This document shows, piece by piece, positions 4,554 to 36,837 of a DNA stretch of 64,000 nt. The position numbers and the translations under genes are program-made. Numbering within the stretch: the stretch's first letter is position 1; each line of letters starts with the position of its first letter. The DNA comes from Bryobacterales bacterium (GTDB lineage: Bacteria; Acidobacteriota; Terriglobia; Bryobacterales; Bryobacteraceae), in the NCBI GenBank assembly GCA_003170295.1, contig PNAJ01000147.1:1-64000 (forward strand), given 5' to 3'. The notes under the pieces are model-generated. The model worked only from the letters and a program-made list of their open reading frames with translations, was not told the origin of the DNA and searched no databases.

Positions 4554-5933
4554 ATGACATTGGCCACTAACGACCTGGTGATAGCCGATCATGAGCACCT
4601 GATCCATCCGTTGCACCATCCGGTGGATCACGCTGAGCCTGTGATCTATGTCCGCGGGTGCGGCTCAACTGTCACGGACATCGGGGGGCGGGAGTATATT
4701 GATGGGCTCTCCGGACTTTGGAACGTCAACGTGGGTCATGGTCGCGCCGAATTGGCCGATGCGGCCGCGGAGCAGATGAAACAACTCGCCTACTGCTCAG
4801 GCTACATCGGCTCGTCCAACATCGCGGCGATTAGGCTCGCGGAACGCCTTGTTAAAATTGCTTCCGGGATGCAGGCGGTCTTCTTTACCTCCGGGGGCGC
4901 CGAAGCAAACGAATCGGCCTTCAAGACTGCGCGCTTTTACTGGAAGGCGCGTGGCAAACCCGAGAAGGTGAAGGTGGTCGCCCGCCATCATGGCTATCAC
5001 GGAGTTACCCTCCAGGCTATGAGCGCCACCTCAATGGGCTCGTTCTGGAAGATGTTTGAACCGCGCGTGCCTGGATTTGTTCACATCCAGACCTGCTATC
5101 CCTACAGGTTTGAAGGGGCGAAGCCCGGCGAGACAGTCGGGGAAGCTGCGGCCCGTGAGCTTGAGGAGATGATCCTGCGCGAGGGGCCGGATACCGTTGC
5201 CGCCTTTATCGGGGAGCCGATCCACGGGGCTGGCGGCGTGATTTATCCAACCGATGATTATTGGCCTCGCGTTCGCGAAGTGTGCACGCGCTATGACGTC
5301 CTATTGATCGCGGATGAAATTATCACTGGTTTCTGCCGCACGGGGCGCTGGTTCGCGTTAGAGCACTGGAACGTGACTGCCGACATTCTGTCCTTTGCAA
5401 AGGGTGTTACCTCGGGTTATCTCCCGCTCGGTGGGATTATGGTGAGCAAACAGATCAAGGACACGATGGATTCGGTCGAGCCCGCCAATCGTTGGATGCA
5501 CGCTTATACTTACTCGGCCCACCCCACCTGCTGCGCAGTTGGGTTGAAGAACATCGAGATTATGGAGCGTGAGGGGCTCTGCCAGAGGGCGGAGAAGATG
5601 GGCGAGCTACTCCACAGGCGACTAATGGAGGCTTTTGGAGATCATCCAAACGCGGGAGACATCCGAGGCGGCAAGGGGCTCCTCGCGGCAGTGGAGTGGG
5701 TGGAGGATCGGGGCACGAAGAAGAATTTTTCCGCCGACCGCAAGGTGGCGTCGCGTCTTCTCGCCGAGATGATGAAGCGCGGCGTTGTTACGCGGACGCG
5801 ACCTGCTGCTGGTCCAAATTCAGGACCTGGCGATATCTTGTTTTTTGCCCCTCCGCTTGTCATTACGGAGTCAGAGATCGAGACACTGGTCAACGTGTCA
5901 CGCGACGCCGCCCAAGTCGTTTTCGGCGCCTAG
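4554..5933 (+). CDS. Class III PLP-dependent aminotransferase
   Basis: Enzyme of 459 residues in the omega-amino acid/class III aminotransferase family, which moves an amino group between an amine or omega-amino acid and a keto acid using pyridoxal phosphate. Visible motifs: FFTSGGAEANE (about 110-120) for phosphate binding, HHGYHG (145-150), EPIHGAGGV (221-229), the PLP-nitrogen Asp in IADEI (D254) and the Schiff-base lysine in SFAKGVTSGYLPLGG (K283). The length is normal for the family. The N-terminal LWNVNVGHG segment is typical of the pyruvate-dependent omega-transaminase branch, but substrate cannot be deduced. It is read toward the minus-strand biosynthetic operon and ends about 240 bases from it, so it may supply or consume an amine in that pathway; this is an inference from proximity. 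Confidence 0.9.
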   Translation: MTLATNDLVIADHEHLIHPLHHPVDHAEPVIYVRGCGSTVTDIGGREYIDGLSGLWNVNVGHGRAELADAAAEQMKQLAYCSGYIGSSNIAAIRLAERLVKIASGMQAVFFTSGGAEANESAFKTARFYWKARGKPEKVKVVARHHGYHGVTLQAMSATSMGSFWKMFEPRVPGFVHIQTCYPYRFEGAKPGETVGEAAARELEEMILREGPDTVAAFIGEPIHGAGGVIYPTDDYWPRVREVCTRYDVLLIADEIITGFCRTGRWFALEHWNVTADILSFAKGVTSGYLPLGGIMVSKQIKDTMDSVEPANRWMHAYTYSAHPTCCAVGLKNIEIMEREGLCQRAEKMGELLHRRLMEAFGDHPNAGDIRGGKGLLAAVEWVEDRGTKKNFSADRKVASRLLAEMMKRGVVTRTRPAAGPNSGPGDILFFAPPLVITESEIETLVNVSRDAAQVVFGA

Positions 5934-6175: not shown

Positions 6176-7210
6176 TTACTCGCGGACGAGTGATGCGCTC
6201 CGACGGCGGGACTGGACCAATCCCTCGGGGGCGCAGACCAGTTCGAACGTTATTTCTGGTGCAATCCCCTTTTGTGCGCACAGATAGGCGAGCCAATTGG
6301 AGTAGATGCATGCACCTACCGAGCGCCACGTGTTTGCCACCTTGGTTTCCATCGAAGCGGTAGGGAAATCTGCGAGCGATGCGTCGCCGCGCTTAGACAG
6401 AAGCCGATCCTGGACGGCCGTCAGCGCGTCCGCCGTGTCGCAGTCGAAGTAACCAGATGGCATCGACGGATACGTGTTTCGCTCTCGTTTGAGATAACGT
6501 CCGACCTCGCGGCGATACTCGAGCAACAAGGTGTTGGCTTCGTACTCCGGGTGACCTTGGAAGTAGACGAACAAACTATTTCTCTGCCTGGCGAAAACGT
6601 CGACGCCTGCATCGTCGGAACGCGTGAGAATGTCATATCCGCAAGCGGTTAGTTCATTCTCCGCTACATCGTTCCACCTCGAATGGGGCATACTGAGGCG
6701 TGAAGAAGCGCCGGCCGTTAATGAGTTGTCCGATGCCGGAGCACATTCGAAGACGCCGAACAGTTTGTCATGCAGGCGCCGGCGGCTGATGCCATCGGTG
6801 TAGAGAATAGCCGCGTGGGCCGCCAGGCAGGACCAGACCGTCGAGTGGGTGTTCTGCTCAGCCCAGTCAGTGACTCTCGCGAAGGTATCCCAATATGGCT
6901 CGTCCTTCAAATTCGGGGTCCGCGGCTCCGTTCCCGTCACGATCAAGGCATCGAGTTCGCTGTCCCACAGATTCCCGATACTGGAATACAAACGTTTGAT
7001 GCGGTGCCGTCCGACGTCCGTTCGAGGCACTTCTGGCAACGCGTACAGCGAGAGACGTACATCCACTCTGCCAGCCACCGAATCGAGCAGTTTCAGAAAC
7101 TGGCGTTCCGTGGCTTCGAGCGCTCCATCCGGCATGTTATTAATCAGTCCGATGTGGATGCAGTTCTCTTCGGATCCAACAGGTGGATTGTGGTTCAAGT
7201 AGACAGGCAT
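6176..7210 (-). CDS. metA: Homoserine O-acyltransferase, MetA (HTS) family
   Basis: MetA-type enzyme of 344 residues that acylates homoserine with succinyl- or acetyl-CoA. Family marks: NNMPDGALEATERQFLKLL (24-42), VTGTEPRTPNLKDEPYW (91-107), the nucleophilic cysteine in STVWSCLAAHAA (C128), PHSRWNDV (175-182), and the His/Glu pair in YFQGHPEYE (H220, E222). The C-terminal WRSVGACIYSNWLAYL matches the family end. All three catalytic residues are present. It is the last gene of the minus-strand operon and its ATG lies 16 bases inside the 3' end of the MetY-like gene, so translation is probably coupled. MetA followed by MetY would give sulfur assimilation into homocysteine, but the operon context suggests a specialised role. 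Acyl donor (succinyl versus acetyl) cannot be told by eye. Confidence 0.88.
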   Translation of the reverse strand: MPVYLNHNPPVGSEENCIHIGLINNMPDGALEATERQFLKLLDSVAGRVDVRLSLYALPEVPRTDVGRHRIKRLYSSIGNLWDSELDALIVTGTEPRTPNLKDEPYWDTFARVTDWAEQNTHSTVWSCLAAHAAILYTDGISRRRLHDKLFGVFECAPASDNSLTAGASSRLSMPHSRWNDVAENELTACGYDILTRSDDAGVDVFARQRNSLFVYFQGHPEYEANTLLLEYRREVGRYLKRERNTYPSMPSGYFDCDTADALTAVQDRLLSKRGDASLADFPTASMETKVANTWRSVGACIYSNWLAYLCAQKGIAPEITFELVCAPEGLVQSRRRSASLVRE

Positions 7211-8490
7211 CGGTGCTCCTCCGTCGCGGCTAGCGCCTGATCGAGATCGGCGATGATATCGTCGGCGTGCTCGATCCCAACGCTAATGCGAATCATTTCC
7301 GGTTTCACTCCCGCATGGTGCTGTTCTTCGGCAGACATCTGCCGATGCGTGGTCGAGGCGGGATGGCAGGCGAGCGATTTGGCATCGCCCAGATTGACGA
7401 GCCGCTTGACGAGAGCGAGTGCATCATAAAACTTCTTCGCGGCTTCAAATCCACCCTTGATCCCGAAGGTCATCAGAGAACAAGCGCGGCCCGAAAGATA
7501 CTTCACTGCGAGAGCGTGATAAGGATTGTCGGGGAAGCCCGCGTAGTTGACCCACTCGACCCTCGGATGATTGCGCAGGAACTCCGCTACCCTTCTGCCG
7601 TTTTCGACATGACGCTCGACCCGGAGCGCGACCGTTTCAATTCCTTGCAGCAGCAGAAAGGAGCTTAGGGGCGACAGGACAGAGCCGGTGTTTCGCAAGT
7701 AAACGCCGCGGCATCGGCCAATATATGCGGCCCGGCCGAAATGGTCGGTGTAAACCAAGCCGTGATAGGAAGGGTCGGGCTGGCTGAACACTGGGAAACG
7801 CTTGACGTGCTCTTTCCAGGGGAAATTACCGCTATCGACAATGGCTCCGCCGAGCGTGGTGCCGTGTCCGCCCAGATACTTGGTGAGAGAATGCACCACA
7901 ATGTCCGCACCGTATTCGATGGGCCGCAGCAAGATAGGACTGGCTACGGTGTTGTCAACAATCAAAGGCACGCCGTGTTTGTGCGCCACGTGAGCCAGCG
8001 CCTCTATGTCGCAAATGTTTCCCGCAGGGTTGCCGACGCTCTCACAGAAGACTGCCCGTGTCTTGTCGTCAATGAGCTTCTCAATGGCCTCCGGCCGATC
8101 GTTCTCCGCGAAACGAACCGTTACGCCCTGGCTTGGCAGGAGATGGGCGAAGAGGGTATGCGTCGCACCGTAAAGTTGCGGGACTGAGATGATGTTGCCA
8201 CCCAATTCGCAGACATTCAGAGCAGCGTAGTTGACTGCCGCCTGGCCACAACTGACGCAGAGAGCGTCCACTCCGCCTTCCAGCGCCGCGACGCGCCGCT
8301 CCAATACTGCCGTCGTTGGATTGCTGATTCGGGTGTAACGATAGCCCTCGACTTCGAGGTTAAACAAAGCCGCACCGTGATCGGCGCTGTCGAAGGCGTA
8401 AGCTACCGTCTGATAGATCGGAACCGCCACGGATTTCGTCGTCGGATCGATTTCGTAGCCGGCATGCAGCGCGATCGTCTCAGGTCTCAT
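7195..8490 (-). CDS. metY: O-acylhomoserine sulfhydrylase-like PLP enzyme (MetY family)
   Basis: Enzyme of 431 residues of the Cys/Met-metabolism PLP family. Its opening (PETIALHAGYEIDPTT) and the segment YQTVAYAFDSADHGAALF are typical of MetY, which replaces the acyl-oxy group of O-acetyl- or O-succinyl-homoserine with a sulfur nucleophile. PLP ligands visible: D179 (IVDNT) and the Schiff-base lysine K204 in VVHSLTKYLGGHGTTLGG. RYTRISNPTT (51-60) supplies the phosphate-binding Tyr/Arg of the neighbouring subunit. Length and order are normal. It overlaps the decarboxylase upstream by 11 bases and MetA downstream by 16. Because MetY-like enzymes can also perform gamma-replacement with carbon or other nucleophiles in some natural-product pathways, a specialised function is possible here. 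Confidence 0.88.
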   Translation of the reverse strand: MRPETIALHAGYEIDPTTKSVAVPIYQTVAYAFDSADHGAALFNLEVEGYRYTRISNPTTAVLERRVAALEGGVDALCVSCGQAAVNYAALNVCELGGNIISVPQLYGATHTLFAHLLPSQGVTVRFAENDRPEAIEKLIDDKTRAVFCESVGNPAGNICDIEALAHVAHKHGVPLIVDNTVASPILLRPIEYGADIVVHSLTKYLGGHGTTLGGAIVDSGNFPWKEHVKRFPVFSQPDPSYHGLVYTDHFGRAAYIGRCRGVYLRNTGSVLSPLSSFLLLQGIETVALRVERHVENGRRVAEFLRNHPRVEWVNYAGFPDNPYHALAVKYLSGRACSLMTFGIKGGFEAAKKFYDALALVKRLVNLGDAKSLACHPASTTHRQMSAEEQHHAGVKPEMIRISVGIEHADDIIADLDQALAATEEHRCLST

Positions 8491-9865
8491 ATCGATCCTT
8501 GGTCCGAGCGATCCGGTTCATCTCGCCTACAACCCACGCAATATCGGCTTCGGTCGTTCGGAAACTGGTGACGCAAGCGCGTATCGCCGGAGTGTCGCGG
8601 AGGCGAACCTCGGACATCCACGCGATCTGCGCCCTTTGAAGCGCAGCGAGGAATTTGCCGACGTCCAGTCCGTCGCGAGTAAAACAGACTAGCGGTAACG
8701 GAGTGCTATTGGCAATCCGCCAGCCCGAGCGCTTTAGGGATGCGCGCAGCAAGCAGCCCATGCGGGTCTGGTGCTCGATCCTTGCGACACAGCCTGCTTC
8801 GCCCTCATGCGCCAGCGAAAAGAAGAGTTTCAAGCCGATGAATCGGCGAGACCACTGTATAGACGTCGTGTACGGATCCGCAACGGCATCGTGCGCGTGG
8901 GGCATGTAGGAATTGTCGGCGTGGAATGCTTCACGGACCGCGTCAGGATGCCGGCAAAAAAACATCCCTGCTCCTACCGGCACCGAAAACCATTTGTGGG
9001 CATCGCAGGTGATGGAGTCGGCTAACTCGATTCCGGCGAGATGAGCTTTTAGGGTCGGCGACAGGACCGCAGCGCCACCCCAGGCAGCGTCGGCATGAAA
9101 CCAGAGTCCTTCTGAACGGCAAAACTGGGCGAGATCCTGCAAGGGATCAATCGCGCCGGCTACGGTCGTGCCAGCACTGCCGACGACCATAAAAGGCGCG
9201 AAGCCATTCTCCCGGTCCTCCTCGACTCTTCTTGCGAGATCGGCAAGATCCATTTTCAGGTCGTGATCCGTGGCTACCCTTCGAACAGCATCCCGTCCCA
9301 GTCCTGTCACGTGAGCGATTTTGTTGAACGAGTGGTGTGCTTCAGTACTCAGATAGATCGTTGGCGCAGCGTGGAGAGAACGGAGTCCCTTGCCGCCATA
9401 GCGCGGAAAGCTCTTTGTCAAAGCAACGGCAACCGCTGAAAGATTCGCTTCCGCGCCGCCAGTGGTGAAACAAGCAGCGGTGTCAGCAAAGCCGAACTTT
9501 CCGGCGAGCCAGGAGAGTGTATGACGCTCAATCTCGTTTGCCGCAGGCGAAGTGCGCCAACTGGCCAACTGGGGGTTGTGCATCGCGACCAAAGTGTCCG
9601 CAACCACAGATGCGAGCGTCACGCTCGGATTGAACAGACCGAAGTAACGCGGGTGGGTGACTTGCACGTGCCAGCTTCGCATCATGCGTTCTACATCTGC
9701 GCCAATCTCATTCACATTTCCCGGAGTGCTGAAGTCATAGTGCGAGCAAAGATAGCTGCGTATCTCCTGAGGCGTGACAGTCGGGAAAAGCGGACCGTCC
9801 GCGATCTCGGAATCGAGCTTTTCTTTCGCGATGCGGATTGCGTCGAACATGGTTTCGGTGGTCAT
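8480..9865 (-). CDS. Group II PLP-dependent amino acid decarboxylase
   Basis: Protein of 461 residues related to aromatic-L-amino-acid/glutamate decarboxylases, which release CO2 from an amino acid to give an amine. Seen: HPRYFGLFNP (71-80) in the substrate region, FTTGGAEANLSA (133-144), HADAAWGG (257-264) with the PLP-binding D259, and the Schiff-base lysine in CDAHKWFSVPVG (K291). The start at 9865 is chosen because its ATG overlaps the stop of the preceding synthetase gene as ATGA; a longer version from 9898 would overlap by 37 bases. Some enzymes of this fold are aldehyde synthases rather than decarboxylases, which sequence alone does not exclude. Its product amine could be an acyl acceptor for the CoA- or ACP-bound acids made by its neighbours. 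Confidence 0.87.
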   Translation of the reverse strand: MTTETMFDAIRIAKEKLDSEIADGPLFPTVTPQEIRSYLCSHYDFSTPGNVNEIGADVERMMRSWHVQVTHPRYFGLFNPSVTLASVVADTLVAMHNPQLASWRTSPAANEIERHTLSWLAGKFGFADTAACFTTGGAEANLSAVAVALTKSFPRYGGKGLRSLHAAPTIYLSTEAHHSFNKIAHVTGLGRDAVRRVATDHDLKMDLADLARRVEEDRENGFAPFMVVGSAGTTVAGAIDPLQDLAQFCRSEGLWFHADAAWGGAAVLSPTLKAHLAGIELADSITCDAHKWFSVPVGAGMFFCRHPDAVREAFHADNSYMPHAHDAVADPYTTSIQWSRRFIGLKLFFSLAHEGEAGCVARIEHQTRMGCLLRASLKRSGWRIANSTPLPLVCFTRDGLDVGKFLAALQRAQIAWMSEVRLRDTPAIRACVTSFRTTEADIAWVVGEMNRIARTKDRYET

Positions 9866-11613
9866 ATCCTGATCACGCCGCTTTCGATTTGTTCGCACAG
9901 CATTCTATCCAGTGGAATGAACGCCTGACGCTCCGGATGATTGAAATAGATGATGTCGCTGGTCTGGGAAGGATCGTATCCTTGGGAGGCGAGGCCGGTC
10001 TTCGTGTATTTGAACGTGCCAGTCAATTCCAGCTCTTTCTGGATGCGTAGAAAAAGAGGACAAGCATACCCGGGCAGGCGCTTGATCAGGTCCGCCCGAA
10101 ATGCAGACAGGTCGAGCTGCCCTTCGAGGACGAGTGCGGCCATGCCAGCCCGACCGTCAGCATTCGGAATTGCGACCCCATAGACGATGGCCTGCTTCAC
10201 GCCTGGCTGTTCGCAAATCGCTTGAGATACTTCGGAAGCCGCGACATTCTCGCCCTTCCAGCGGAAAGTATCCCCAATCCGAGCGACGAAATAGAAAAAA
10301 CCTCTCTCATCCTTTCGCATCAGGTCGCCCGTCCGGAACCACGCATCGCCCTGACGGAAGACATTACGAATGATCCGTCCCTCCGAGTCTTCTGTGTTGA
10401 TGTAACCCTCGAATCGGGTACTGACATCCGACGCGCCGCTCACGAACGGCCCGATTGCCTCGCCAACTTCGTTCGGAAGGCACCGGATGCAGAATCCTTG
10501 CTCGTCCCGGATCGGTTCGTCTGCGTCAATGTCGAACCTTACCAGGACCGCGGGCGCTCGGTGTCCAAGAAACGAAGGAACACGCCCGATGGCCCCGATT
10601 TCCCCCTCGACGTTGAATAAGGAAACGGCACCTTCCGTCGCGGCGTAGAACTCGAAGATCTTCGGTATGCGAAAACGGTCCTGGAAGGAGCGCCATACAT
10701 CTGGGCTGAGGCCGTTTCCGCAGGCCAGGCGAATCCGATGCAGGGTCTCCCCTGGAGACGCTTCGTGGTGTAGAAGGTATCGGCAAAGCTCCCCGATGTA
10801 TTGAAAAAGAGTGCAGTCCCATCGCGCGATATCGGTCCAGAACTGGCTGGCGGAAAACTTGTCGCAAATCACCACGGAGCCGCCGCTCAGGAGAACCGAG
10901 ACGGGAGCCTGCACCCCGCCGACACTGTGATACATGGGCAGGCAATCGTACATTCGATCTGTCGAATGCGTGTCCATCATGCCCGCGAACCAGTTACCCC
11001 ACTGCAGGATTCGCCCATGACTGACATTGGCGGCCTTCGGAAGTCCCGTGGTGCCGGACGTATAAATACAGAGCGCTCGATCGTTTATGGTCAGCGGCCG
11101 GCGCTCGTCTTCGGTGAGTATTTCTCCAGAATGTTGCTCTATGTCCGGCTCGATCCAAACCCTGCCCAAGTCCGTGAGCCTGGATCTTAGACCGGCGCCA
11201 CAGATAATATGTTTGGGCGCGACAATATCGATGCAATGCGCGAGCGAGGGACCAGCCAGATTGGTGTTAAGGAGCGCAACGACTCCACCAACTTTAGTGA
11301 TACCCAACCAGATGGCCAAGTATTCAGGCCGGTTCGCCATGAACAGACCGACCGCATCGCCCTTGCCGAGGCCCTGGTCGAGTGCCCATCTCGCGTATTG
11401 GTTCGAACGCTCGGCAAGTGCACGATACGTGAGGCACTCGTGATCGGAAAGCAAAGCCGGTGCGTCACCGAACTTCGCCGCCAGCTCGTCGATCACCGCG
11501 GGAAGAGTCCGCTCGGGATGTTCTTTAATCGGCGCGGTCAATTGGAGCGCACGGAGCCACGCTTTAGCTGCAGAGTCGCGAACCGTCTCTGCACGTGTAG
11601 CGGCTTCCTTCAT
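9862..11613 (-). CDS. FATP-like AMP-forming acyl-CoA synthetase
   Basis: Protein of 583 residues of the ANL superfamily, most like the very-long-chain acyl-CoA synthetase/fatty-acid-transport-protein branch (FadD6-like). Motifs: A3 loop CIYTSGTTGLPKAANVSH (about 182-199), LPMYHSVGG, the A5-type FYAATEGAVSLFN, RTGDLMRKDERGFFYF and RIGDTFRWKGENVAASEV near the hinge and C-terminal domain. It would activate a carboxylic acid as the adenylate and pass it to CoA or another thiol. It starts with ATG overlapping the SDR stop (ATGA) and ends overlapping the decarboxylase start in the same way, the signature of translational coupling. The substrate is not predictable, although the FATP-like architecture favours a medium or long acyl chain. 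Confidence 0.88.
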   Translation of the reverse strand: MKEAATRAETVRDSAAKAWLRALQLTAPIKEHPERTLPAVIDELAAKFGDAPALLSDHECLTYRALAERSNQYARWALDQGLGKGDAVGLFMANRPEYLAIWLGITKVGGVVALLNTNLAGPSLAHCIDIVAPKHIICGAGLRSRLTDLGRVWIEPDIEQHSGEILTEDERRPLTINDRALCIYTSGTTGLPKAANVSHGRILQWGNWFAGMMDTHSTDRMYDCLPMYHSVGGVQAPVSVLLSGGSVVICDKFSASQFWTDIARWDCTLFQYIGELCRYLLHHEASPGETLHRIRLACGNGLSPDVWRSFQDRFRIPKIFEFYAATEGAVSLFNVEGEIGAIGRVPSFLGHRAPAVLVRFDIDADEPIRDEQGFCIRCLPNEVGEAIGPFVSGASDVSTRFEGYINTEDSEGRIIRNVFRQGDAWFRTGDLMRKDERGFFYFVARIGDTFRWKGENVAASEVSQAICEQPGVKQAIVYGVAIPNADGRAGMAALVLEGQLDLSAFRADLIKRLPGYACPLFLRIQKELELTGTFKYTKTGLASQGYDPSQTSDIIYFNHPERQAFIPLDRMLCEQIESGVIRI

Positions 11614-12344
11614 GCCGTATTCCCCGCGTCAACCGTAAGAACCGTACCGGTAATGCTGTTTGCCTTGTCGCTCAGCAAAAACTCGACAGCATTCGCGACA
11701 TCGTTGAGGCTGGTGAGCCGCCGAAGGGCGCTGCGTCGCACGATCTGTTGCCGCTTCTCGTCGCCGAGCTTCTGCGTCATGTCGGTGTCGACGAAACCAG
11801 GCGCGACCGCATTCACGTTGACTCCCATCTTCCCGACCTCTCGAGCCAGCGATCGGGTAAACCCCAGCAATGACGCCTTGGTTGCGCCATAAACGGAAAG
11901 CCCGCTATAACCCGTGGATCCGACGATAGACGCAATGTTTACGATCCGTCCACCGCCGTCGGCAATCATGGAGCGCACCGCATACTTGGTGAGGACAATC
12001 GGGGACAGCGTGTTCAAGCGGACCAACTGCTCAATCTTCGAATCGTGCATGAGAGCGAGGACGCCATCTGTACCTAAGGCAGCGTTGTTTACAAGACCGT
12101 AGATGGGGCCGAACTCTTTCCTCAATTTCCGGAGGAGGGAAGGAATTTCCTCGACGTTCGCCAAATCGAAGGGCACAAAGCGAATCGAGCCGGGACCGTT
12201 GCCTTCCCTCTCGAGAATCGCCGAGCTGAGCTGACTCGTCTCCTTTCGCGCGACCGCGATCACTTGAAATCCGATCTCGGCAAGCTTGCGAGCGATCGCG
12301 AGTCCCAGGCCGCGGCTCGCTCCGGTGACGAGAACGCTATGCAT
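11610..12344 (-). CDS. Short-chain dehydrogenase/reductase (FabG-like)
   Basis: Enzyme of 244 residues with a complete classical SDR layout: cofactor motif TGASRGLGLAIA near the N-terminus, NNAALG, catalytic Ser in NIASIVG, catalytic YGATK and the NAVAPGFVDTDM segment typical of 3-oxoacyl-ACP reductases. It probably reduces a keto group on an ACP- or CoA-bound intermediate with NADPH. The start at 12344 (MHSVLVTG) is preferred over one 30 bases upstream because it places the nucleotide-binding strand right at the N-terminus and overlaps the ligase stop by 8 bases. Its position between two acid-activating enzymes and an ACP suggests that it acts on a carrier-bound acyl chain. Confidence 0.88.
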   Translation of the reverse strand: MHSVLVTGASRGLGLAIARKLAEIGFQVIAVARKETSQLSSAILEREGNGPGSIRFVPFDLANVEEIPSLLRKLRKEFGPIYGLVNNAALGTDGVLALMHDSKIEQLVRLNTLSPIVLTKYAVRSMIADGGGRIVNIASIVGSTGYSGLSVYGATKASLLGFTRSLAREVGKMGVNVNAVAPGFVDTDMTQKLGDEKRQQIVRRSALRRLTSLNDVANAVEFLLSDKANSITGTVLTVDAGNTA

Positions 12345-13713
12345 ACTGCCGCGCCATTTTGCCCGTTTCAGCAACCGTCAGGGCGGGCACGAAGGTTATC
12401 ATTGCCGGAACCTTGTGGCGGGCAAGTGTGTTCCGGCAGAGTTCAAAAATCTCATGCCGAACTCCGTTTGAGGGTTCCCTGTCCAGAACGATGTCGGCGA
12501 CTACGATTGCACCGGTGATCGGGTTCCTTCTCGTATGGACAAGACACATCCGAACCTGGGGGTGCCGGTTGATGACCGCCTCAACTTCCTCAGGATGAAC
12601 TTTGAGACCGCCAACGTTAATCACTCCGTCTCGCCGCCCGGCAAAATAGTAACGGTCACCGCGCAGTTCGAGCATATCGCCGGTGTCAACGAATCCGTCT
12701 GGACCGCTGAGAGTTTTTTCCACGCGGCCGAGGTAACACGCCGCGGTACGGCTGGATCGGATTCGAAGGGAGCCATCCTCCACCTTCATTTCCACGCGAG
12801 CATCCGGCTGTTCGATGAACTTTGCCGGAAATCCGGCCAAGCCATCGTTGACATCAAACGCGACACCCGCCTCCGTCGAAGCGAAAGCGTGGCCGATCCT
12901 CGCCTGCGGATAGAAGCATCGAAGCTGGTTAAGGATCGCCTGGTCGACAATTTCCCCAGACAGACGGATATATTCCGGAGCAATCCTGTGCGCCTCCGCG
13001 CTCATGAGTTCCTGACGCCAATGAGAGGGCGTCCCGGAGATGTGCGTGACTCCATGAGCCCCAGCCCGGACCAAATAATCCGTCATCGGCTCCTTGGCAT
13101 TTGACAGAATGAGCGAGGCCCCAGAAAGAATCGTGCGCAAGAATATCTGGAGACCTCCATAACGCCGAATGTCGTAGAACGTGCCCCATACGATCTCGGG
13201 GTTCTTCGCATACTCGATCGCTCCGGCAAGACTCGCCAGAGTGTGCAACGCGAGTTTCGGCAAACCCGTCGTACCAGAGGTGAGGAGGATCCACTCTGTC
13301 TGGTGTGACGGGCGACGATCGACGTCGGCTGGAACGATCTTCGCGCTAACCGTGACGAGATTTCGAACCGAAGGAATGTCTGGTCCGAGCGTATCCCGAT
13401 CGGTCACGATGGCGTCCACCTCGGCTGCCTCCATGACGAATGGAAGATGCCGGACCGGCAAATCGGCAGGGCAAAGAACCACGCGCCGTGCAACCCCATC
13501 AAGCTCGACCAGTGCTAATGCCGCGGCGAGCTGGTCTGTACTCGCGATAAGGACTGACCGCCCGCGTAACTCCTCGCACCGGCCACCGAGAGACGACCCG
13601 TGAACCAAATCACTCAGCGCGACACGTGCCTGAGCTCCGCACAGAGCACTATTGGTTGTGCCCCCAAGGCTCGTGAGAGCGTTCCAAAGAGACACTTGCC
13701 TACCCGGCTGCAT
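12337..13713 (-). CDS. AMP-dependent ligase, short ANL enzyme (acyl-ACP ligase candidate)
   Basis: ANL-superfamily protein of 458 residues. The phosphate loop WILLTSGTTGLPKLALHT (141-158) is intact, followed by FASTEAGVAFDV, DTGDMLELRGDRYYFAGR (adenine/ribose and hinge region) and GGLKVHPEEVEAVINRHP, with a C-terminal ETGKMAR that supplies the catalytic lysine. The N-terminal domain is shorter than in usual acyl-CoA synthetases. The ATG at 13713 sits within the last codons of the ACP gene (14-base overlap); the same frame stays open further upstream, but that part reads as ACP antiphase and is not credible. Coupling to a stand-alone ACP suggests it loads an acid onto that carrier, as in other discrete ligase/ACP pairs. 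Confidence 0.83.
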   Translation of the reverse strand: MQPGRQVSLWNALTSLGGTTNSALCGAQARVALSDLVHGSSLGGRCEELRGRSVLIASTDQLAAALALVELDGVARRVVLCPADLPVRHLPFVMEAAEVDAIVTDRDTLGPDIPSVRNLVTVSAKIVPADVDRRPSHQTEWILLTSGTTGLPKLALHTLASLAGAIEYAKNPEIVWGTFYDIRRYGGLQIFLRTILSGASLILSNAKEPMTDYLVRAGAHGVTHISGTPSHWRQELMSAEAHRIAPEYIRLSGEIVDQAILNQLRCFYPQARIGHAFASTEAGVAFDVNDGLAGFPAKFIEQPDARVEMKVEDGSLRIRSSRTAACYLGRVEKTLSGPDGFVDTGDMLELRGDRYYFAGRRDGVINVGGLKVHPEEVEAVINRHPQVRMCLVHTRRNPITGAIVVADIVLDREPSNGVRHEIFELCRNTLARHKVPAMITFVPALTVAETGKMARQYA

Positions 13714-13984
13714 TTTCGTAAGACTTGACGAAATCGCCCAGTGTAACCGGAAAGGGCGAATCATCCGCGGCACTGAACGGATCCACACCGTACATATCCT
13801 CAAGCCTGGCGACGATGACGGCAAAACATAGCGAATCGAGGCCGGATTCCAGCAGCGGCAAATCGTCAACGAGCGGCGCCAACCGTCTGTTCTGTTCTTC
13901 GGCGACTTGCTTGAACTGGCTTAAGACCTCGGATCTTACCGAGATTAAGTGATCATTCTCTGATACTTGCATTTGTGTGGACAT
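13700..13984 (-). CDS. Acyl carrier protein, stand-alone
   Basis: Small acidic protein of 94 residues with the carrier-protein core: LPLLESGLDSLCFAVIVARL, in which S51 of GLDSL is the phosphopantetheine attachment site, followed by the helix LEDMYGVDPF. It would carry an acyl or aminoacyl group as a thioester during pathway steps. I chose the ATG at 13984; a TTG at 14014 in the same frame would overlap the upstream acyltransferase. It lies between the beta-helix acyltransferase and the AMP ligase and overlaps the latter by 14 bases. The sequence is divergent from fatty-acid-synthesis ACP, which argues for a dedicated biosynthetic carrier. Confidence 0.85.
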   Translation of the reverse strand: MSTQMQVSENDHLISVRSEVLSQFKQVAEEQNRRLAPLVDDLPLLESGLDSLCFAVIVARLEDMYGVDPFSAADDSPFPVTLGDFVKSYENAAG

Positions 13985-13991
13985 AGTGAGT

Positions 13992-15104
13992 TTATTGGAC
14001 CTGAGTCGAGCCAAAACGCGTCATTGCGATCCTGGGATAGCGCCCAGTTCGAACACCATATCTCTTGAGAAACGCAGCTACCTCGTCACCCAGATCATTC
14101 GAGGCGCGAGTCTGTTCTTTCTTAGCGATGTCGATCCACGTGATATTTCGGGAACTTAGCGAATCCCTTACGTCAGCAGGAATCTCCCAAAGACTGAGAA
14201 GTACATCGAGTTTGATTGCCGGCGAATCCTTAAGCATCTCGCGAACGTCTCCGTCTGTGGCCAATAACCGCCAAGGCCGGCTTTTCTTCCACCAGCGGCC
14301 TTTTGGCTGCGAGATCTCGTAGCAATCGCCGTTTTTTTGGCAACCCAAGCCCGACCCAACAAAGAAGCGGATCATCTCCGTTACGATGCTTCGGAACATC
14401 GCTACCTTCTCTTCATCTGAGACCTGCTTCGGAAAGACCGGCGCCTTCCCGACGATTCGAGCCGGATATCCCACCGCCAGGGAATTGGGCGGAATAATGC
14501 CCGATACCACCGAGTTTGCCCCTACCTTCACGCCGTCACCGATCTTTGAGCCCGAGAGAACAAACACTCTCCATCCCAAACCTACCCGGCTGCCAATCTC
14601 AATCGGCGCAAATTCGACCGGATAGCCCTCAAACTGGCTATGAAATGAAGAGTGGCCGAATATCAGACAGTGCCCGCCGATTCCGGAGTCATCACCAATC
14701 ACGATCGACTGCGCCGGATTGATAAAAGTCAGTTGCTGGATCTGACAGTTGCGGCCAACCACAAAGCGGGAGTCGGGGTTCTGCAGCCCACCCACAAATA
14801 CCTGCTCGTTAATCTTGGTGTCCTCGCCGATTTCGATGTACGGAGTATCCAGAAATGTCAACGATCCAATCTGGACGTGCGAACCCAGGCAGATTCCTTT
14901 TCCCCGAATAATCGTGAGAAATCCAATCGAGGTGTGATCACCCACTTCCACCTGTTCGCCAGATATCACCGACCCGAAACCGATCGATACGCCCTTTCCG
15001 ATCCGATGACCTTTTAGCCGGTAAAGAAGAACCTTGATAAATCCCGGCCACAACCCGTAGAGAAGGACGGAGCGGATAGGGATACGCGGCTTTTCGATAA
15101 GCAT
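13992..15104 (-). CDS. Left-handed beta-helix acyltransferase with extra C-terminal domain
   Basis: Protein of 370 residues. Residues from about 35 to 225 are imperfect hexapeptide repeats (IGKGVSIGFGSVIS, VEVGDHTSIGFLTIIRG, IEIGDRVG-like turns) ending in VGANSVVSGIIPPNSLAVGYPARIVG, the classic end of a xenobiotic/serine acetyltransferase-type beta-helix. The catalytic His is probably in the HCLIFGHSSFHSQF segment. After it come about 140 further residues (EEKVAMFRSIVTEMIRFF to the end) not typical of the family and not recognised. In family terms it transfers an acyl group from CoA or ACP to a hydroxyl or amine. Being directly upstream of the ACP gene, it may use the carrier-bound acyl group. 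Confidence 0.8.
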   Translation of the reverse strand: MLIEKPRIPIRSVLLYGLWPGFIKVLLYRLKGHRIGKGVSIGFGSVISGEQVEVGDHTSIGFLTIIRGKGICLGSHVQIGSLTFLDTPYIEIGEDTKINEQVFVGGLQNPDSRFVVGRNCQIQQLTFINPAQSIVIGDDSGIGGHCLIFGHSSFHSQFEGYPVEFAPIEIGSRVGLGWRVFVLSGSKIGDGVKVGANSVVSGIIPPNSLAVGYPARIVGKAPVFPKQVSDEEKVAMFRSIVTEMIRFFVGSGLGCQKNGDCYEISQPKGRWWKKSRPWRLLATDGDVREMLKDSPAIKLDVLLSLWEIPADVRDSLSSRNITWIDIAKKEQTRASNDLGDEVAAFLKRYGVRTGRYPRIAMTRFGSTQVQ

Positions 15105-15168
15105 TCTGCAATCGCGATCATGGCCGCCTTGAGTCGGCCTTATTTTAGGAGCCGCGTCGTGAATCTAG

Positions 15169-15837
15169 CTAGCGTTGAGTTGAATCCGGCTCGACGATTG
15201 TCTGGATCAAGGTGCGAAGCAAGTTCACCCCCTCGAGCAAGTTTTCTTCGGGCTCGGCGGGATTGAGCGCCATCTCCGCGCCCAGAGCGCGGAACAACCC
15301 CGCCGTATGGGCCACATCGCACACCCCGTGCACATCCGTGTAGACAAACTCCGCCGATCCCTGTGCGGCCGCAAGATCTGCCAAATAAGCCATGAATTTC
15401 TGAATGAACCCTTCAAAGAACGCCATCATAGCGAGGATCTGGACTCCGGAGAGCCGCCCTACGAACAGGCGAACGTTCGTCAGATCCCGGTGAACCGCAA
15501 TGGCGTCATGATCCGTCGGGATCGCGTGGGCAGCGAGAGCGAACTCTCGCAGCATTCTCGGGTGGGAATCACGAACCTCTTCATGAAGGTTCTCGATGAT
15601 GATCGAACGGGACTCTTCTGAGCTGACGGCGAGATAAGCGCCGGTCATCCAGTAAATAAAATTGCCCTCGAGCACGGCGGAATATCGGGCAATAATCCCG
15701 CGCCGCTGGTCGCTGGATACCTCTTTAGAATCTGGTAACCATGCCATGAGGTCTTCGATGGCACGCTCCACATCCTGTTGAACCGCTGTCTCGAGCGCCT
15801 GGCTCGCATTTTCTGTGATACTTGATACAGTAGTCAT
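15169..15837 (-). CDS. Putative heme-oxygenase-like diiron oxidase (HDO superfamily)
   Basis: All-helical protein of 222 residues. Metal-ligand-like residues fall in the HDO arrangement: E57 in VLEGNFIYW, E86/E87 and H92 in HEEVRDSHPRM, E142 in AFFEGFIQKF, and H170/D174/H177 in YTDVHGVCDVAHTAGLF. That H-x3-D-x2-H ending is typical of iron-containing redox enzymes related to UndA, BesC, CADD and PqqC, which do O2-dependent C-C cleavage, N-oxygenation or desaturation. The start at 15837 is preferred because GGGAGGA lies about 9 bases upstream; a longer frame from 15882 has none. It is the first gene of the packed operon, 64 bases before the acyltransferase. The family call is by eye from motif spacing. 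A TenA-like non-redox protein is the main alternative. Confidence 0.65.
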   Translation of the reverse strand: MTTVSSITENASQALETAVQQDVERAIEDLMAWLPDSKEVSSDQRRGIIARYSAVLEGNFIYWMTGAYLAVSSEESRSIIIENLHEEVRDSHPRMLREFALAAHAIPTDHDAIAVHRDLTNVRLFVGRLSGVQILAMMAFFEGFIQKFMAYLADLAAAQGSAEFVYTDVHGVCDVAHTAGLFRALGAEMALNPAEPEENLLEGVNLLRTLIQTIVEPDSTQR

Positions 15838-16285
15838 AAAGTCCGTCCTCCCGACGCTGTGATTCCCGCGCCCCCGTCCCACTTAACCAAGCCGCTCCAC
15901 ACTGGGGCACGCTACCGCCCTTCCGCTCCCATCAAAAGTATCTATTTCTCTGACCTGGGATAGGATACCAAGTAAAAGCAATTCGACGGCCAGACGGGCG
16001 ATCGGGCCTATCTCGCTGTTGCTAAAGCAGTTTTGGCGAATCTTCGTAGTGGGGATGCACCCTCCGGAGTACCAAATTCTACGACAAAATGAAGAAAGTT
16101 TGGAGAATATCGAGTCAATGCCGCTGAGAGGTTCCCATTACGGTTGGCTGCAATTCTTCATTTCTGAAACCTGCCGGTCTTCCATGCGAGCGATGCCGGC
16201 TAGGCCCATCTAAACCAAAGCTTTCGGGCTCTTCATTTCAATGCCACCCAGGCAATTAACTTCAAATTTGTCACTGCGACGCGCC
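15838..16285. other. Spacer upstream of the HDO operon
   Basis: About 450 bases between the P450 stop and the HDO start, both read leftward. It is long enough for a promoter driving the HDO-to-MetA operon separately from the P450. No clear promoter, operator or hairpin stood out. Small open frames inside are not convincing. Confidence 0.4.
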
Positions 16286-17578
16286 CTATTGAACTGCAGG
16301 CGCCTTTATTTCCGGGACCATGATGAAATCATGTTTGTTGCGCAAATTCACGCCCGCATCGAGCTCCACAATCGTCCTTCCAACGCACCGCAAGCGCAGC
16401 GACTTGGCGATCATAGCCATATGGATCTGCATCTCGATTCGAGCAAAGGATTCTCCAATACATTTCCTCGGTCCCGCTGAAAACGGTAGCATCGCGAGCG
16501 CATGCTGGCTTTGATCCTGCTCGGATCCGAACCGATCCGGGTCGAAGCGCTCTGGAGCCGTCCAAAGGTCAGGATGACGTTGGATCAAAAAAGGTGAAAT
16601 ATAGATTTCCGTTCCAGCGGGAACGATATAGTCGCCGAGTTTATCCTCCCTGAGCGCTCTACGCGTCATCAGCCAACCAGCCGGATACAAGCGCATCGTC
16701 TCTTCAATGACTTGGCGCGTGTAGGCGAGTTTTTGGAAATCGCGAAGTTCTAGAACCTCGATGCTCGGTAAACTACCGAGCTCCCTCGACAGCTTTTCCT
16801 CGACGTCAGGATGCTCCGAGAGCAGATACCAGGTCCAATTCAATGTGCTGGCGGTAGTTTCATGCCCTGCGACGATGAGGGTCATGATCTCACTGACCAA
16901 TTGGCGATCTGGCATACGCTCGCCCGTTTCCCGATCCCGCGCCTCCATGAGCATACCGAGAAGGTCCGCGCACATCCTGCTCTCTTTCCGCCTTCGTGTG
17001 GCAATCTGAACGACGATTTTCCCCAAAGCCCTGAATGCTTGGGCAAACTGCAAGTCGCGTGCCGATTCACTAGAAAGAATACTGAAAGGCTCAGCAACCT
17101 GCTCATAATCGTCTCCGAAGATAGAAATGAGCACCACCTCCAGAATCATCAGGCTAATGTCACGAGTGACATTAACAGTGCCTCGCTTCTGGGCCGCATC
17201 CTCCCATTTCCTGAGTAACTTGACGTTAGCCGTTGTAATGACATTCAGCAGGGCGCCCATGACGTCGCTGTGGAATGCCGGTTGAATCATGCGTCGCTGA
17301 CTCTTCCAAAATTCGCCTTCGCTCACCATGAGGCCATTTCCGAGAAGCAAGCCAACGCGTTTGATTGCCTGACCTTTCTTATAGTTCTGCCAGTTCTCGC
17401 GGAGGACGTAATGGGCGTACCGAGGGTCACTGACCACAAATACGTCGGAACCGTAGATCGACGCTTTAAAGAGGTTTCCGAATTGCGTGAAGTGATCACA
17501 CAGCCAACTCAAGAGATCTTGAGACGGGTCGAACTTCTCTGAGGGTCCAGACGGGACTCGCTTAGGCTTGGTAATCAT
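16286..17578 (-). CDS. Cytochrome P450
   Basis: Monooxygenase of 430 residues with all the P450 marks: oxygen-activating I-helix AGHETTAS (about 237-244), ExxR in IEETMRLYP (E293, R296), the PERF region (APERFDPDRF, 341-350) and the heme-ligand loop LPFSAGPRKCIGESFAR with C373. The style is that of bacterial CYP102/CYP4-like fatty-acid-type P450s rather than actinobacterial CYP105-like ones, judging by FSAGPRKCIGE and the long K-helix region. Start at 17578 is supported by AGGAAG upstream; an ATG at 17665 would add 29 very basic residues. It needs separate electron-transfer partners, not found here. It probably hydroxylates the product or an acyl intermediate of the adjoining operon. Confidence 0.9.
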   Translation of the reverse strand: MITKPKRVPSGPSEKFDPSQDLLSWLCDHFTQFGNLFKASIYGSDVFVVSDPRYAHYVLRENWQNYKKGQAIKRVGLLLGNGLMVSEGEFWKSQRRMIQPAFHSDVMGALLNVITTANVKLLRKWEDAAQKRGTVNVTRDISLMILEVVLISIFGDDYEQVAEPFSILSSESARDLQFAQAFRALGKIVVQIATRRRKESRMCADLLGMLMEARDRETGERMPDRQLVSEIMTLIVAGHETTASTLNWTWYLLSEHPDVEEKLSRELGSLPSIEVLELRDFQKLAYTRQVIEETMRLYPAGWLMTRRALREDKLGDYIVPAGTEIYISPFLIQRHPDLWTAPERFDPDRFGSEQDQSQHALAMLPFSAGPRKCIGESFARIEMQIHMAMIAKSLRLRCVGRTIVELDAGVNLRNKHDFIMVPEIKAPAVQ

Positions 17579-18302: not shown

Positions 18303-18845
18303 ATGATGCAGACCGAGCAGTCTAACCATCAGTGGTTTGCGCTCAGGGTGAAGTCCCGCCATGAAAAAGCCGTTGCCCTGGCTGCCCGCGGCAAAGGATT
18401 TGAGGAATTTCTACCGCTGTACCGATGGCGGCAGACCTGGTCGGATCGTTCGAAGTGGGTGGAAATGCCGCTGTTCCCCGGCTATGTCTTCTGCCGGTTG
18501 GACCCAGCTCGAAGGCTCCCGCTGTTGACGATTCCGGGTGTTCTAAATTTCGTCTCTATGGGAAGGACGCCAGTTCCTATCGAAGACGCGGAGATTGCCT
18601 CCGTGCAAGCGGCAATACGATCCGATCTGGTAACCGAGCCATGTTCGTTCGTCGATGGCGGCCAGCGCGTGCGGCTTGAGCGAGGGCCTTTGGCGGGCAC
18701 GGAAGGGGTTTTGATCGAAGCTGCAGAGCGGCACCAGGTGGTCGTGAGCCTAACTATTCTGAGGCGATCGATCGCGGTAAACATTGAACGCCGATGGGTC
18801 GAGCCTCTCTCGCTCCAGATGACCGCAGGAATCAACGGGATTTAA
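18303..18845 (+). CDS. NusG/RfaH-like (UpxY-type) transcription antiterminator
   Basis: Protein of 180 residues with a NusG N-terminal domain: WFALRVKSRHEKAVALAARGKGFEEFLPLY, then MPLFPGYVFCRLDP, and a C-terminal KOW-type module (about 118-150, FVDGGQRVRLERGPLAGTEGVL). Specialised NusG paralogs of this kind load onto RNA polymerase in the leader of long capsule and exopolysaccharide operons and prevent early termination. It is the first gene of a plus-strand run of roughly 40 kb, exactly where such a factor would act, and only 25 bases precede the sugar transferase. Its target sequence would be in the leader upstream or just inside the operon. The family is clear. Which operons it serves is inferred from position. 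Confidence 0.88.
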   Translation: MMQTEQSNHQWFALRVKSRHEKAVALAARGKGFEEFLPLYRWRQTWSDRSKWVEMPLFPGYVFCRLDPARRLPLLTIPGVLNFVSMGRTPVPIEDAEIASVQAAIRSDLVTEPCSFVDGGQRVRLERGPLAGTEGVLIEAAERHQVVVSLTILRRSIAVNIERRWVEPLSLQMTAGINGI

Positions 18846-18870
18846 CGAGTCGGGCAGGTTAAGTCAAGCC

Positions 18871-20016: not shown

Positions 20017-20086
20017 GCCGGGAGTCTCTAAGGCAAGACTCTTACTCCCATAGATTCAATTCAAGACCGGAGGGCAGGAATAAATC

Positions 20087-21088: not shown

Positions 21089-21144
21089 ACGACTACAGAT
21101 GCATTGCCCCAGACGTGAAGCTGGGGAAGAACGTCGAGCTTTCG
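21085..21144 (+). pseudogene. 5' stub of a second wbpD-like acetyltransferase gene
   Basis: Twenty codons from GTG read MNDYRCIAPDVKLGKNVELS, of which 16 match the start of the intact acetyltransferase at 41854 (MIDYVCIAPDVKLGKDVRLS); the DNA is about 75% identical over 60 bases. After the serine the resemblance stops abruptly and the frame runs into unrelated GC-rich sequence. The GTG overlaps the upstream stop as GTGA, the normal coupling seen in intact operons. It is therefore a truncated remnant left by deletion or insertion, not a chance match. Confidence 0.85.
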
Positions 21145-23493: not shown

Positions 23494-23660
23494 CAGATTG
23501 AGACGGCTATCCAAAAAATGGTCCCGAGAATGTCGACGAAGTCGTTCCACTGAGCGGGTTCACGAGGGGGCTTTATACTCAATCTAATTGAATTAGGCAG
23601 ATGCACGCATACAGGGCCCGATGATGGTTCGTTTCTCGTATACCCGGTAACTGCAATACG

Positions 23661-24770: not shown

Positions 24771-24804
24771 AACCAGCGTAGCCCACCAAAACTCTTTGGA
24801 AATT

Positions 24805-25710: not shown

Positions 25711-25746
25711 CTAATCGGCACGGGTCTTCAAGCAACATAAACTGAA

Positions 25747-26655: not shown

Positions 26656-26667
26656 CGAAAATACGGA

Positions 26668-28479: not shown

Positions 28480-28498
28480 TACCCTTTGAGCACGCGAA

Positions 28499-29992: not shown

Positions 29993-30088
29993 CGCTCTCA
30001 ATTCTAGACAAAGTTACAGTATGACAGCCGCGCCGATTTCCTAAATGGGAAGCGAAGGCGCCGGCCAGAAATAAGCTAAGGAGAATCT

Positions 30089-36831: not shown

Positions 36832-36837
36832 CAAAGG

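Follow-up and report, generated by a model that had tools for sequence, protein, structure and literature searches.

Acyl-ACP-dependent N- and O-acylation of sugars in bacterial surface polysaccharides relies on gene sets that combine a ligase, an acyl carrier protein (ACP), a FabG-like SDR and a hexapeptide transferase. The exosortase A (XrtA/PEP-CTERM) set also includes an ACP and a PLP decarboxylase, the latter presumably of a different fold from group II enzymes; to our knowledge, neither haem-oxygenase-like diiron oxidases (HDOs) nor MetA/MetY belong to it. Among natural-product pathways, Fub7 acts in fusaric acid biosynthesis, which is fungal and built around a PKS. We know of no HDO previously found working for a polysaccharide, and such a case would be the first. 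In its available sections, a review counts about a dozen characterised HDOs, ties most of them to fatty- or amino-acid-type substrates and names none linked to polysaccharides (PMC13108848). In rhizobitoxine biosynthesis, the C-terminus of RtxA is 41% identical to an OAH sulfhydrylase, according to the accessible part of its description (PMC3222319).

Gene content and layout of the operon

The window, the whole 64,000-nucleotide stretch analysed here, comes from a Bryobacterales bacterium and carries ten intact, in-frame genes on the minus strand between 17578 and 6176, divergent from an exopolysaccharide locus (Table 1). Six overlaps of 4–16 bases (ACP/LIG1 14, LIG1/SDR 8, SDR/LIG2 4, LIG2/DEC 4, DEC/METY 11, METY/META 16), one 7-base gap (LbH/ACP) and one 64-base gap (HDO/LbH) link the genes downstream of the P450, which lies 448 bases from HDO. 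The ten same-strand genes are in place as initially annotated, with a slightly looser coupling than described. The enzyme families then proposed are borne out by profile scores for HDO, Hexapep, PP-binding, AMP-binding, SDR, PF00282, OAH sulfhydrylase, HTS and P450.

Table 1. Features of the operon and its flanks in the window, with best profile evidence
Feature	Assignment	Position	Strand	Profile evidence
Aminotransferase	class III aminotransferase, possible accessory	4554..5933	+	NF005682 434 bits, under cut 510
META	homoserine O-acyltransferase (HTS family), core	6176..7210	-	NF003776 405.3 bits, cut 358
METY	O-acylhomoserine gamma-replacement enzyme, core	7195..8490	-	OAH sulfhydrylase TIGR01326 618.7 bits, cut 495.1
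DEC	group II PLP amino-acid decarboxylase, core	8480..9865	-	PF00282 214 bits
LIG2	FATP/FadD6-like acyl-CoA synthetase, core	9862..11613	-	NF006134 713.9 bits, cut 625
SDR	FabG-like ketoreductase, core	11610..12344	-	TIGR01830 213 bits, under cut 298
LIG1	stand-alone AMP-forming ligase, core	12337..13713	-	AMP-binding 55.8, AMP-binding_C 46 bits
ACP	acyl carrier protein, core	13700..13984	-	PP-binding 21.6 bits (cut 20.8, weak)
LbH	left-handed beta-helix (hexapeptide) acyltransferase, accessory	13992..15104	-	Hexapep 36.2 bits (cut 27)
HDO	haem-oxygenase-like diiron oxidase, core	15169..15837	-	PF14518 38.7 bits (cut 28.9)
P450	cytochrome P450, accessory oxidase	16286..17578	-	PF00067 249.6 bits
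Exopolysaccharide locus	divergent from operon; some inner frames minus-strand or unassigned	18303..41475	+	

Residues E57, E87, H92, E142, H170, D174 and H177 of HDO are invariant in 49/49 aligned sequences (L098 and L014, apparently one contig, being counted twice) and position 82 is Asp or Glu in 48/49, so that the alignment displays the three-histidine, three- or four-carboxylate ligand set of the HDO superfamily; a fourth carboxylate ligand would make the enzyme similar to the N-oxygenase SznF. The AF2 model (pLDDT 92.4) matched the CADD/UndA/SznF-type fold in Foldseek (CADD 1rcw TM 0.67, RohS 0.66, PolF 0.64, UndA 0.63, prob 1.00), with no match at E 0.001 or better. CADD, HrmI, UndA, RohS, PolF and AetD figured among the best 50 of 586 matches, and BesC, SznF and MboA were absent from these 50. 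By sequence, solved structures (compared with HDO, LIG1, DEC, METY and META) included no HDO relative at E 10, and a plasmid collection returned no HDO match.

The remaining core enzymes also retain their catalytic signatures. The GLDSL motif of ACP is present in 39/39 aligned sequences, and LIG1, the presumed ACP loader, adjoins ACP in most loci and keeps its adenylation motifs and TFYDIRRYGGL in at least 97% of 40 aligned sequences; its apparent split in L031 comes from a run of Ns at an assembly gap and not from a lesion. SDR retains the catalytic N, S, Y and K, and LIG2 carries an AMP-binding domain and passes the cut-off of its FATP/FadD6-like acyl-CoA synthetase model. Both its PF00282 match and the PLP-lysine motif CDAHKW place DEC among group II decarboxylases, and its nearest solved structures are PLP decarboxylases of the same group. 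The active-site Cys, His and Glu motifs of META are retained, and METY is 76–86% identical to its counterparts in other clusters.

This MetA/MetY pair is not the sole homocysteine route of its genome, which at other places encodes a second MetY (C107, 53%) and a MetX-like protein (C64; 457 bits, cut 500); in addition, neither of two same-genus genomes searched had HDO or HTS matches. The pair therefore represents extra copies rather than the housekeeping set, and a housekeeping methionine operon was discarded on these grounds.

Conservation of an eight-gene block

Eight genes (HDO, ACP, LIG1, SDR, LIG2, DEC, MetY and MetA) are all present in the window, in a further 19 of the 49 loci found with HDO and in G370, a complete genome from the same class. 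Gene content was checked in 48 of the 49 loci, L053 being a 58-residue end fragment, and was counted from tblastn places, as simple ORF calling gave antisense shadow ORFs in GC-rich loci. Among the 30 incomplete loci, 23 stop at a contig or retrieved-stretch boundary. Hosts of the complete core belong to Acidobacteria, Rokubacteria and one planctomycete genome, and gene order shuffles across the 19 full loci while the genes remain together. The arrangement thus exceeds chance, and a fortuitous juxtaposition of the core genes was ruled out by their conservation as a block. By contrast with the ten-gene unit of the initial annotation, the conserved unit comprises eight genes, P450 orthologues occurring in 3/49 loci and the long LbH in 1/49. 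Its proposal of a dedicated pathway devoid of PKS or NRPS modules gains support from this conservation, and orthologues were not found scattered in related genomes. The product it put forward, an N-acyl amine or a homoserine-derived lipid, is one candidate among others.

Between-gene distances correlate in all 28 comparisons (r 0.34–0.88; 0/500 permutations reaching the observed value in each), a pattern that also arises from shared descent alone. Across 396 genomes of the phylum, LIG1 matches of at least 60% and MetA matches of at least 52% each occur in three, the same three that hold closely related HDOs. DEC was rejected as a functional marker since PF00282-type relatives are too common (277/396 phylum genomes at E 1e-40). 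Its closest relatives outside the cluster (41–48%) occur in seven genomes (G051, G067, G090, G133, G152, G222, G229), with no other core gene in the neighbouring stretches examined (3.1 kb for G229, the downstream side for G051); single LbH and P450 matches were seen there in G067 and G222, at 29% and 21%.

Some loci depart from the full set: L023 and L025 are without ACP and SDR, L018 without LIG2, and in L033 HDO stands by itself, which implies that no pathway step is strictly obligatory. Conversely, G335 and G208 have the trio of ACP, LIG1-like ligase and SDR unaccompanied by HDO. In both, a protein is encoded upstream of the trio; the two proteins are homologous (402 bits between them) and have no Pfam match, and an acyltransferase function for them is a guess. 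One L159 frame gave no family match in the profile scan.

A limited literature search returned no description of an equivalent cluster. That eight enzymes persist as a block in Acidobacteria, in Rokubacteria and in one planctomycete genome points to a product under selection. The HDO family of the window is distinct and open to experiment: its gene neighbourhood is fixed, and some of its hosts are in culture (L007, L029 from Terracidiphilus gabretensis S55, and L031), Granulicella sp. L46 and Acidipila rosea DSM 103428 being among the cultured strains.

Polysaccharide context and exchangeable acyltransferases

The exopolysaccharide locus facing the operon encodes an UpxY antiterminator, a polyprenyl glycosylphosphotransferase, an AsnB-like amidotransferase, GT4 and GT2 glycosyltransferases, a GlcNAc 2-epimerase, a Wzx-like flippase and a nucleotide-sugar dehydrogenase; the initial annotation had drawn no link to polysaccharide synthesis. 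At least two polysaccharide families lie within 10 kb upstream of 10/27 clusters versus 0/80 control pieces (p=2.4e-7). No marker was found over the same distance in 13/27 loci; the window falls among them by construction, as its proteins served as queries and were left out of the count. In G370, GT2, Wzx, hexapeptide and RmlC/RmlD genes surround the cluster on the same strand. The wider flanks retrieved for the Granulicella L46, Acidipila rosea and Pirellulales clusters held no polysaccharide markers. Some clusters are thus freestanding and, together with the marker-less loci, they indicate that a polysaccharide cannot be the sole target. A weak GT4 match (30%) appeared in L017 at a looser E-value, this locus having none in the 10-kb upstream count.

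The loci carry exchangeable acyltransferases. Hexapeptide proteins occur inside or before the core in the window, L005, L009, L014, L015, L021 (below cut-off), L022, L027, L029, L040 and G370, where the protein lies ~1.9 kb before ACP; the long LbH of the window has its only orthologue among the 49 loci in L005 (73%). A GNAT lies directly upstream in L020, and Acyl_transf_3 is present in L040 and L043. Inside the core of L018, L034, L041, L042 and L047, another family (c12) gave a poor model (pLDDT 51) whose best 50 fold matches are, with few exceptions, GNAT, NMT and Eis structures (TM ~0.2–0.3), and these weak but consistent matches suggest a GNAT-type protein. The complete clusters L017, L031 and L035 have no recognised acyltransferase. 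Alpha/beta hydrolases sit between HDO and ACP in L011, L032 and L037 (by Pfam) and in L039 and L051 (by clustering). Of all the cluster's components, the acyltransferase varies most between loci, which fits a transfer step differing among hosts.

When loci were sorted by hand, hexapeptide acyltransferases were found in 7/10 with a polysaccharide context (the window, L009, L012, L021, L027, L029, L040, L041, L046, G370) versus 1/9 others (L017, L023, L030, L031, L032, L037, L042, L047, L098), with p=0.015 (one-sided) among loci that are related. Other accessory genes are sporadic: P450 orthologues (58–67%) are part of the cluster or its immediate neighbours in L005, L009 (partial) and L012, and relatives of the aminotransferase (69–73%) lie beyond META in L008, L021 and L035.

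Candidate pathway and comparison with known systems

We tentatively propose, at somewhat below even probability, that the eight core genes form one dedicated pathway, in which an oxidised acyl or aminoacyl group of amino-acid origin is built on ACP and passed on by a locus-specific acyltransferase, here most likely to a sugar of the neighbouring exopolysaccharide. In the scheme that we infer, including its order of steps, all its substrates, the tethering to ACP and the sugar acceptor, MetA would activate homoserine as an O-acyl ester and MetY would swap the ester for a nucleophile, yielding a gamma-substituted amino acid from which DEC may remove CO2, unless DEC makes an amine nucleophile. 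LIG2 would activate a second acid as acyl-AMP/CoA and LIG1 would load a carboxylate on ACP, where HDO (diiron) may oxidise, and SDR reduce or oxidise, the tethered group. Transfer would fall to the beta-helix protein in the window and to other acyltransferases elsewhere, and tailoring by the P450 would be optional.

A somewhat less probable rival is a freestanding small-molecule cluster, with the same eight genes releasing a metabolite (e.g. an N-acyl amine, a metallophore or a reactive amino-acid derivative), with polysaccharide loci as opportunistic neighbours. The Granulicella, Acidipila and Pirellulales clusters and the 13 marker-less loci (the window included by construction) agree with it, the alpha/beta hydrolases of five loci could release such a product, and the substrates of characterised HDOs, as summarised in the available sections of the review, are mostly of fatty- or amino-acid type (PMC13108848). 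It accounts poorly, however, for the enrichment of polysaccharide genes upstream, for the embedding of the G370 cluster among same-strand sugar genes and for the hand-sorted association with hexapeptide acyltransferases. A homoserine ester or amide lipid, in which LIG2 would supply long-chain acyl-CoA as a new donor for MetA acting on homoserine and MetY and DEC would convert the head group, appears improbable: LIG2 does fall in the long-chain FATP/FadD6 group, and the 23 cluster MetAs listed have Arg, Val, Ser, Leu, Lys or Ile at the position whose residue, we assume, separates acetyl (Glu) from succinyl (Gly) donors, but ordinary MetAs of that subgroup may also differ at this position, MetA passes the ordinary homoserine O-succinyltransferase cut-off, and ACP, LIG1 and SDR would be left without a role.

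Slightly less probable still is a variant of the XrtA ligase-ACP-decarboxylase-hydrolase set, with its decarboxylase swapped for a group II enzyme and an HDO branch added. An XrtA-type ATPase (292 bits, cut 324.5) and a chain-length protein (233, cut 279) in L016, a FemAB-like protein in L027 (112 bits, cut 260) and weak matches of LIG1 and two L037 hydrolases to XrtA ligase and hydrolase models point that way, yet every score is under its curated cut-off (hydrolases 50 and 59 versus 168 and 203). Primary sulphur metabolism, with an ordinary MetA-MetY methionine pair beside unrelated genes, is very improbable and was already disfavoured: both proteins pass models of ordinary methionine enzymes (TIGR01326, NF003776), but the same genome has separate MetY and MetX-like genes, same-genus genomes without HDO have no HTS match, and the genes stay together in 19 loci despite shuffled order.

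In its full form, the proposal of an ACP-bound group passed to a sugar would amount to a new type of polysaccharide decoration. A diiron HDO and a repurposed MetA/MetY pair would make the group, oxidised and derived from homoserine and either acyl or aminoacyl in kind, on a stand-alone carrier protein; exchangeable acyltransferases would then attach it to the slime polysaccharide of Acidobacteria, Rokubacteria and a planctomycete. We regard this full form as rather unlikely; if exopolysaccharide is indeed decorated in this way, an oxidase family of natural-product pathways would be linked with surface chemistry in common soil bacteria.

Compared with described systems, the window HDO shares the fold and the histidine/carboxylate ligand type of CADD, HrmI, UndA, RohS, PolF and AetD, but only 12–15% sequence identity among the best 50 of 586 Foldseek matches. 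METY matches the Fub7 structure at 2.5e-130 and shares its fold, within a bacterial cluster without PKS, unlike the fungal PKS-centred pathway of Fub7. The rhizobitoxine pathway (rtxACDEFG) likewise places a MetY-like enzyme domain at the service of a natural product, whereas the accessible part of its description mentions no HDO, ACP or paired ligases (PMC3222319). The XrtA/PEP-CTERM set (TIGR03098, TIGR03100, TIGR03101) resembles the cluster in having a ligase and hydrolases in an exopolysaccharide locus, but all scores of the cluster proteins against its models are below cut-off, LIG1 reaching 65.5 bits versus 592 for the ligase model TIGR03098. Sugar acylation sets similarly bring an ACP, an AMP ligase, an SDR and a hexapeptide acyltransferase together within or next to a polysaccharide locus; the cluster described here has HDO, a second ligase, a decarboxylase and MetA/MetY on top of these, and differs further in that some of its copies are freestanding.

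Composition and distribution of the core

The initial annotation proposed a ten-gene operon, and all ten genes were found intact on one strand (Table). Its tight coupling stood in part: 4–16-base overlaps join six neighbouring pairs and 7 bases separate the left-handed beta-helix acyltransferase gene (LbH) from the ACP gene, but the gap from the haem-oxygenase-like diiron oxidase gene (HDO) to LbH measures 64 bases and the P450 gene is set off, ending 448 bases from HDO. Profile searches upheld the enzyme families named from sequence, the weakest being HDO (38.7 bits against a cut of 28.9) and ACP (21.6 against 20.8). The predicted fold supports the HDO assignment, as the AlphaFold model (pLDDT 92.4) matched CADD, HrmI, UndA, RohS and PolF with probability 1.00 among the matches listed, no match of this search reaching E ≤0.001. 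The seven likely ligand residues of HDO are invariant in 49/49 aligned sequences, and catalytic motifs are retained in all eight core enzymes.

A single pattern-based scan of GTDB species genomes, detecting close relatives only, yielded 49 HDO loci, which record titles place in Acidobacteria or their subgroups (31/49), Rokubacteria (16/49), a Pirellulales MAG and a Formivibrio MAG (one each, the latter a 58-residue fragment). The suggested co-occurrence of HDO, ACP, PLP decarboxylase (DEC) and METY was confirmed, with the full eight-gene core present in 19 of the 49 loci (L008, L009, L011, L012, L014, L017, L021, L029, L030, L031, L032, L034, L035, L037, L040, L041, L042, L046 and L047), as well as in the window and in G370, a complete genome of the same class. 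The commonest order was HDO-ACP-LIG1-SDR-LIG2-DEC-METY-META, where LIG1 is a stand-alone AMP-forming ligase and LIG2 a FATP/FadD6-like acyl-CoA synthetase; META, DEC and METY were rearranged in some loci, HDO was relocated in L014, L045 and G370, and META came first in L046. Among the 30 loci without the full core, 23 stop at the end of the contig or retrieved stretch before the missing genes. LIG2 appeared truly absent from L018, ACP and SDR from L023 and L025, and every core gene except HDO from L033; L016 appeared devoid of LIG2 and most of SDR, perhaps through assembly, and L010 and L038 are 3 kb contigs carrying HDO alone. Eight assemblies contributed two loci each. One of them, from Rokubacteria, holds both a complete cluster and a second without ACP and SDR, a natural test of which core genes are dispensable. 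Integrase-type and transposase genes adjoining HDO in two loci are a possible sign of mobility.

Coordinates of clusters and neighbouring features
Feature	Locus	Coordinates	Strand	Remark
Ten-gene operon	window	17578-6176	minus	
Complete cluster, Rokubacteria	L012	10001-20128		
Second cluster, same assembly	L023	10001-17664		no ACP, SDR
Integrase-type and transposase genes adjoining HDO	L010	1737-2741		
Integrase-type and transposase genes adjoining HDO	L051	61-1527		
Second, weak asparagine-synthase-like protein in polysaccharide locus	window	26668-28479	plus	PF00733, 49.7 bits
Secreted-looking protein, C-terminal PEP-type sorting motif (by eye)	window	3430-4173	minus	no NCBIfam match at 1e-6

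Within the window's phylum, HDO gave matches in 4/396 genomes; since one match (G219) is only a 36% fragment, a close orthologue occurs in three genomes, the window's own included. Exactly these three carry LIG1 at ≥60%, MetA at ≥52% and DEC at ≥69%. For the L012 genome's phylum, HDO was found in 11/95 genomes, five of which bear it on two separate contigs. DEC relatives at 41–48% identity occur in L092, L093, L094, L096 and L097, with no other core gene beside them in the stretches examined.

The MetA and MetY of the cluster are additional copies. At 83% completeness, the window's genome also encodes a second MetY (53% identity) and a MetX-like protein (457 bits, under the cut-off of 500). 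Two same-genus genomes gave no match to HTS, the MetA family, and one of them has MetY at 50%. HTS proteins occur in 34 of the 396 phylum genomes, those outside the three cluster genomes reaching at most 37% identity.

Acyltransferases and polysaccharide surroundings

Loci differ in the acyltransferase-type genes that lie within the core or next to it. The LbH family of the window recurs in L005, other hexapeptide proteins occur in L009, L014, L015, L021 (below cut-off), L022, L027, L029, L040 and G370, a GNAT in L020 and Acyl_transf_3 in L040 and L043. The c12 family, without Pfam match, is found in L018, L034, L041, L042, L047 and partly L007; its model is weak (pLDDT 51), and GNAT-type or N-myristoyltransferase structures make up nearly all of the 50 fold matches listed. 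Alpha/beta hydrolase genes lie between HDO and ACP in L011, L032, L037 (Pfam), L039 and L051 (clustering), at the position of the acyltransferase in other loci; those of L037 weakly resemble XrtA hydrolases 1 and 2. ACP, a LIG1-like ligase and SDR also occur together at 33–45% identity in two genomes without HDO match (G335 and G208), the four-gene set of such genomes (L159 and L160) comprising these three and a protein of ~390–420 residues outside any Pfam family. The proteins just upstream of the G335 and G208 trios are homologous (402 bits) and match no Pfam family, and the one from G335 also shows weak similarity (1.7e-4) to the protein that follows META in the Pirellulales locus; that they are acyltransferases is a guess.

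In the window, an exopolysaccharide locus starts divergently from the operon. It encodes an UpxY antiterminator at 101.6 bits (cut 100) and, slightly below its cut of 295.55, a polyprenyl glycosylphosphotransferase at 295.2 bits, together with an AsnB-like amidotransferase, glycosyltransferases of types GT4 and GT2, a Wzx-like protein and a GlcNAc 2-epimerase. The G370 cluster, with all its genes on one strand, is flanked by GT2, methyltransferase, Wzx, hexapeptide and alpha/beta-hydrolase genes on one side and by RmlC, an epimerase and RmlD on the other; two frames in its surroundings had no Pfam match. Upstream of L016 lie a polysaccharide export gene and XrtA-type chain length and ATPase genes, the latter two under their cut-offs.

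Enrichment was tested with 23 proteins from 17 polysaccharide families on the 10 kb upstream of 27 clusters (≥8 kb available each), excluding self hits, which leaves the window's own row empty. At least two families were found in 10/27 clusters against 0/80 control pieces of 10 kb (p=2.4e-7), and at least one in 14/27 against 5/80 (p=9.4e-7), the tested loci being related to one another and the controls coming from only two genomes, G370 and Terracidiphilus, both cluster-bearing. The other 13 clusters, window included, had no such family within 10 kb upstream. Markers were absent even from wider flanks in Granulicella sp. L46 (~27 kb upstream, 20 kb downstream), Acidipila rosea (~30 kb upstream, the contig ending downstream) and the Pirellulales MAG (10 kb upstream, 20 kb downstream), so freestanding versions exist.

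Proposed chemistry and known systems

The composition, conservation, intact active sites and context of the cluster are observed; the step order, substrates, tethering to the ACP and acceptor are inferred. The output would be an ACP-bound group passed to an acyltransferase, a reading that owes most to the modular pattern of varied acyltransferases and HDO-less trios. ANL ligases load acids onto carriers or CoA, amino acids are the substrates of group II decarboxylases, MetA produces O-acylhomoserine and MetY-type enzymes exchange its gamma substituent. The LIG1 stretch TFYDIRRYGGL, which we take to lie near the acid-binding place of ANL ligases, is kept in ≥97% of 40 aligned sequences (L031, excluded for an N gap, reads TLYDIRRYGGL), and its two arginines could accommodate an anionic substrate. 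Beyond META, on the opposite strand, the window, L008, L021 and L035 carry an aminotransferase (69–73%), and aldehyde dehydrogenase genes are found directly after META in L031, directly after METY in L034 and upstream of HDO in L037; we tentatively suggest that these might together convert a decarboxylation product into an acid for LIG1.

The initial annotation knew of no described cluster with this composition, and the open-access papers searched yielded none. The eight-gene set is solidly a conserved pathway, any surprising chemistry in it being hypothetical. Fub7, a MetY relative with a role in a natural-product pathway, is among the structure matches of METY. The C-terminus of RtxA is likewise a MetY relative serving such a pathway (PMC3222319), and the substrates to which HDOs have been linked are mostly of fatty- and amino-acid type (PMC13108848). 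Both the enzyme kinds and acyl decoration as an idea are known already; their combination, so far as testable, is not.
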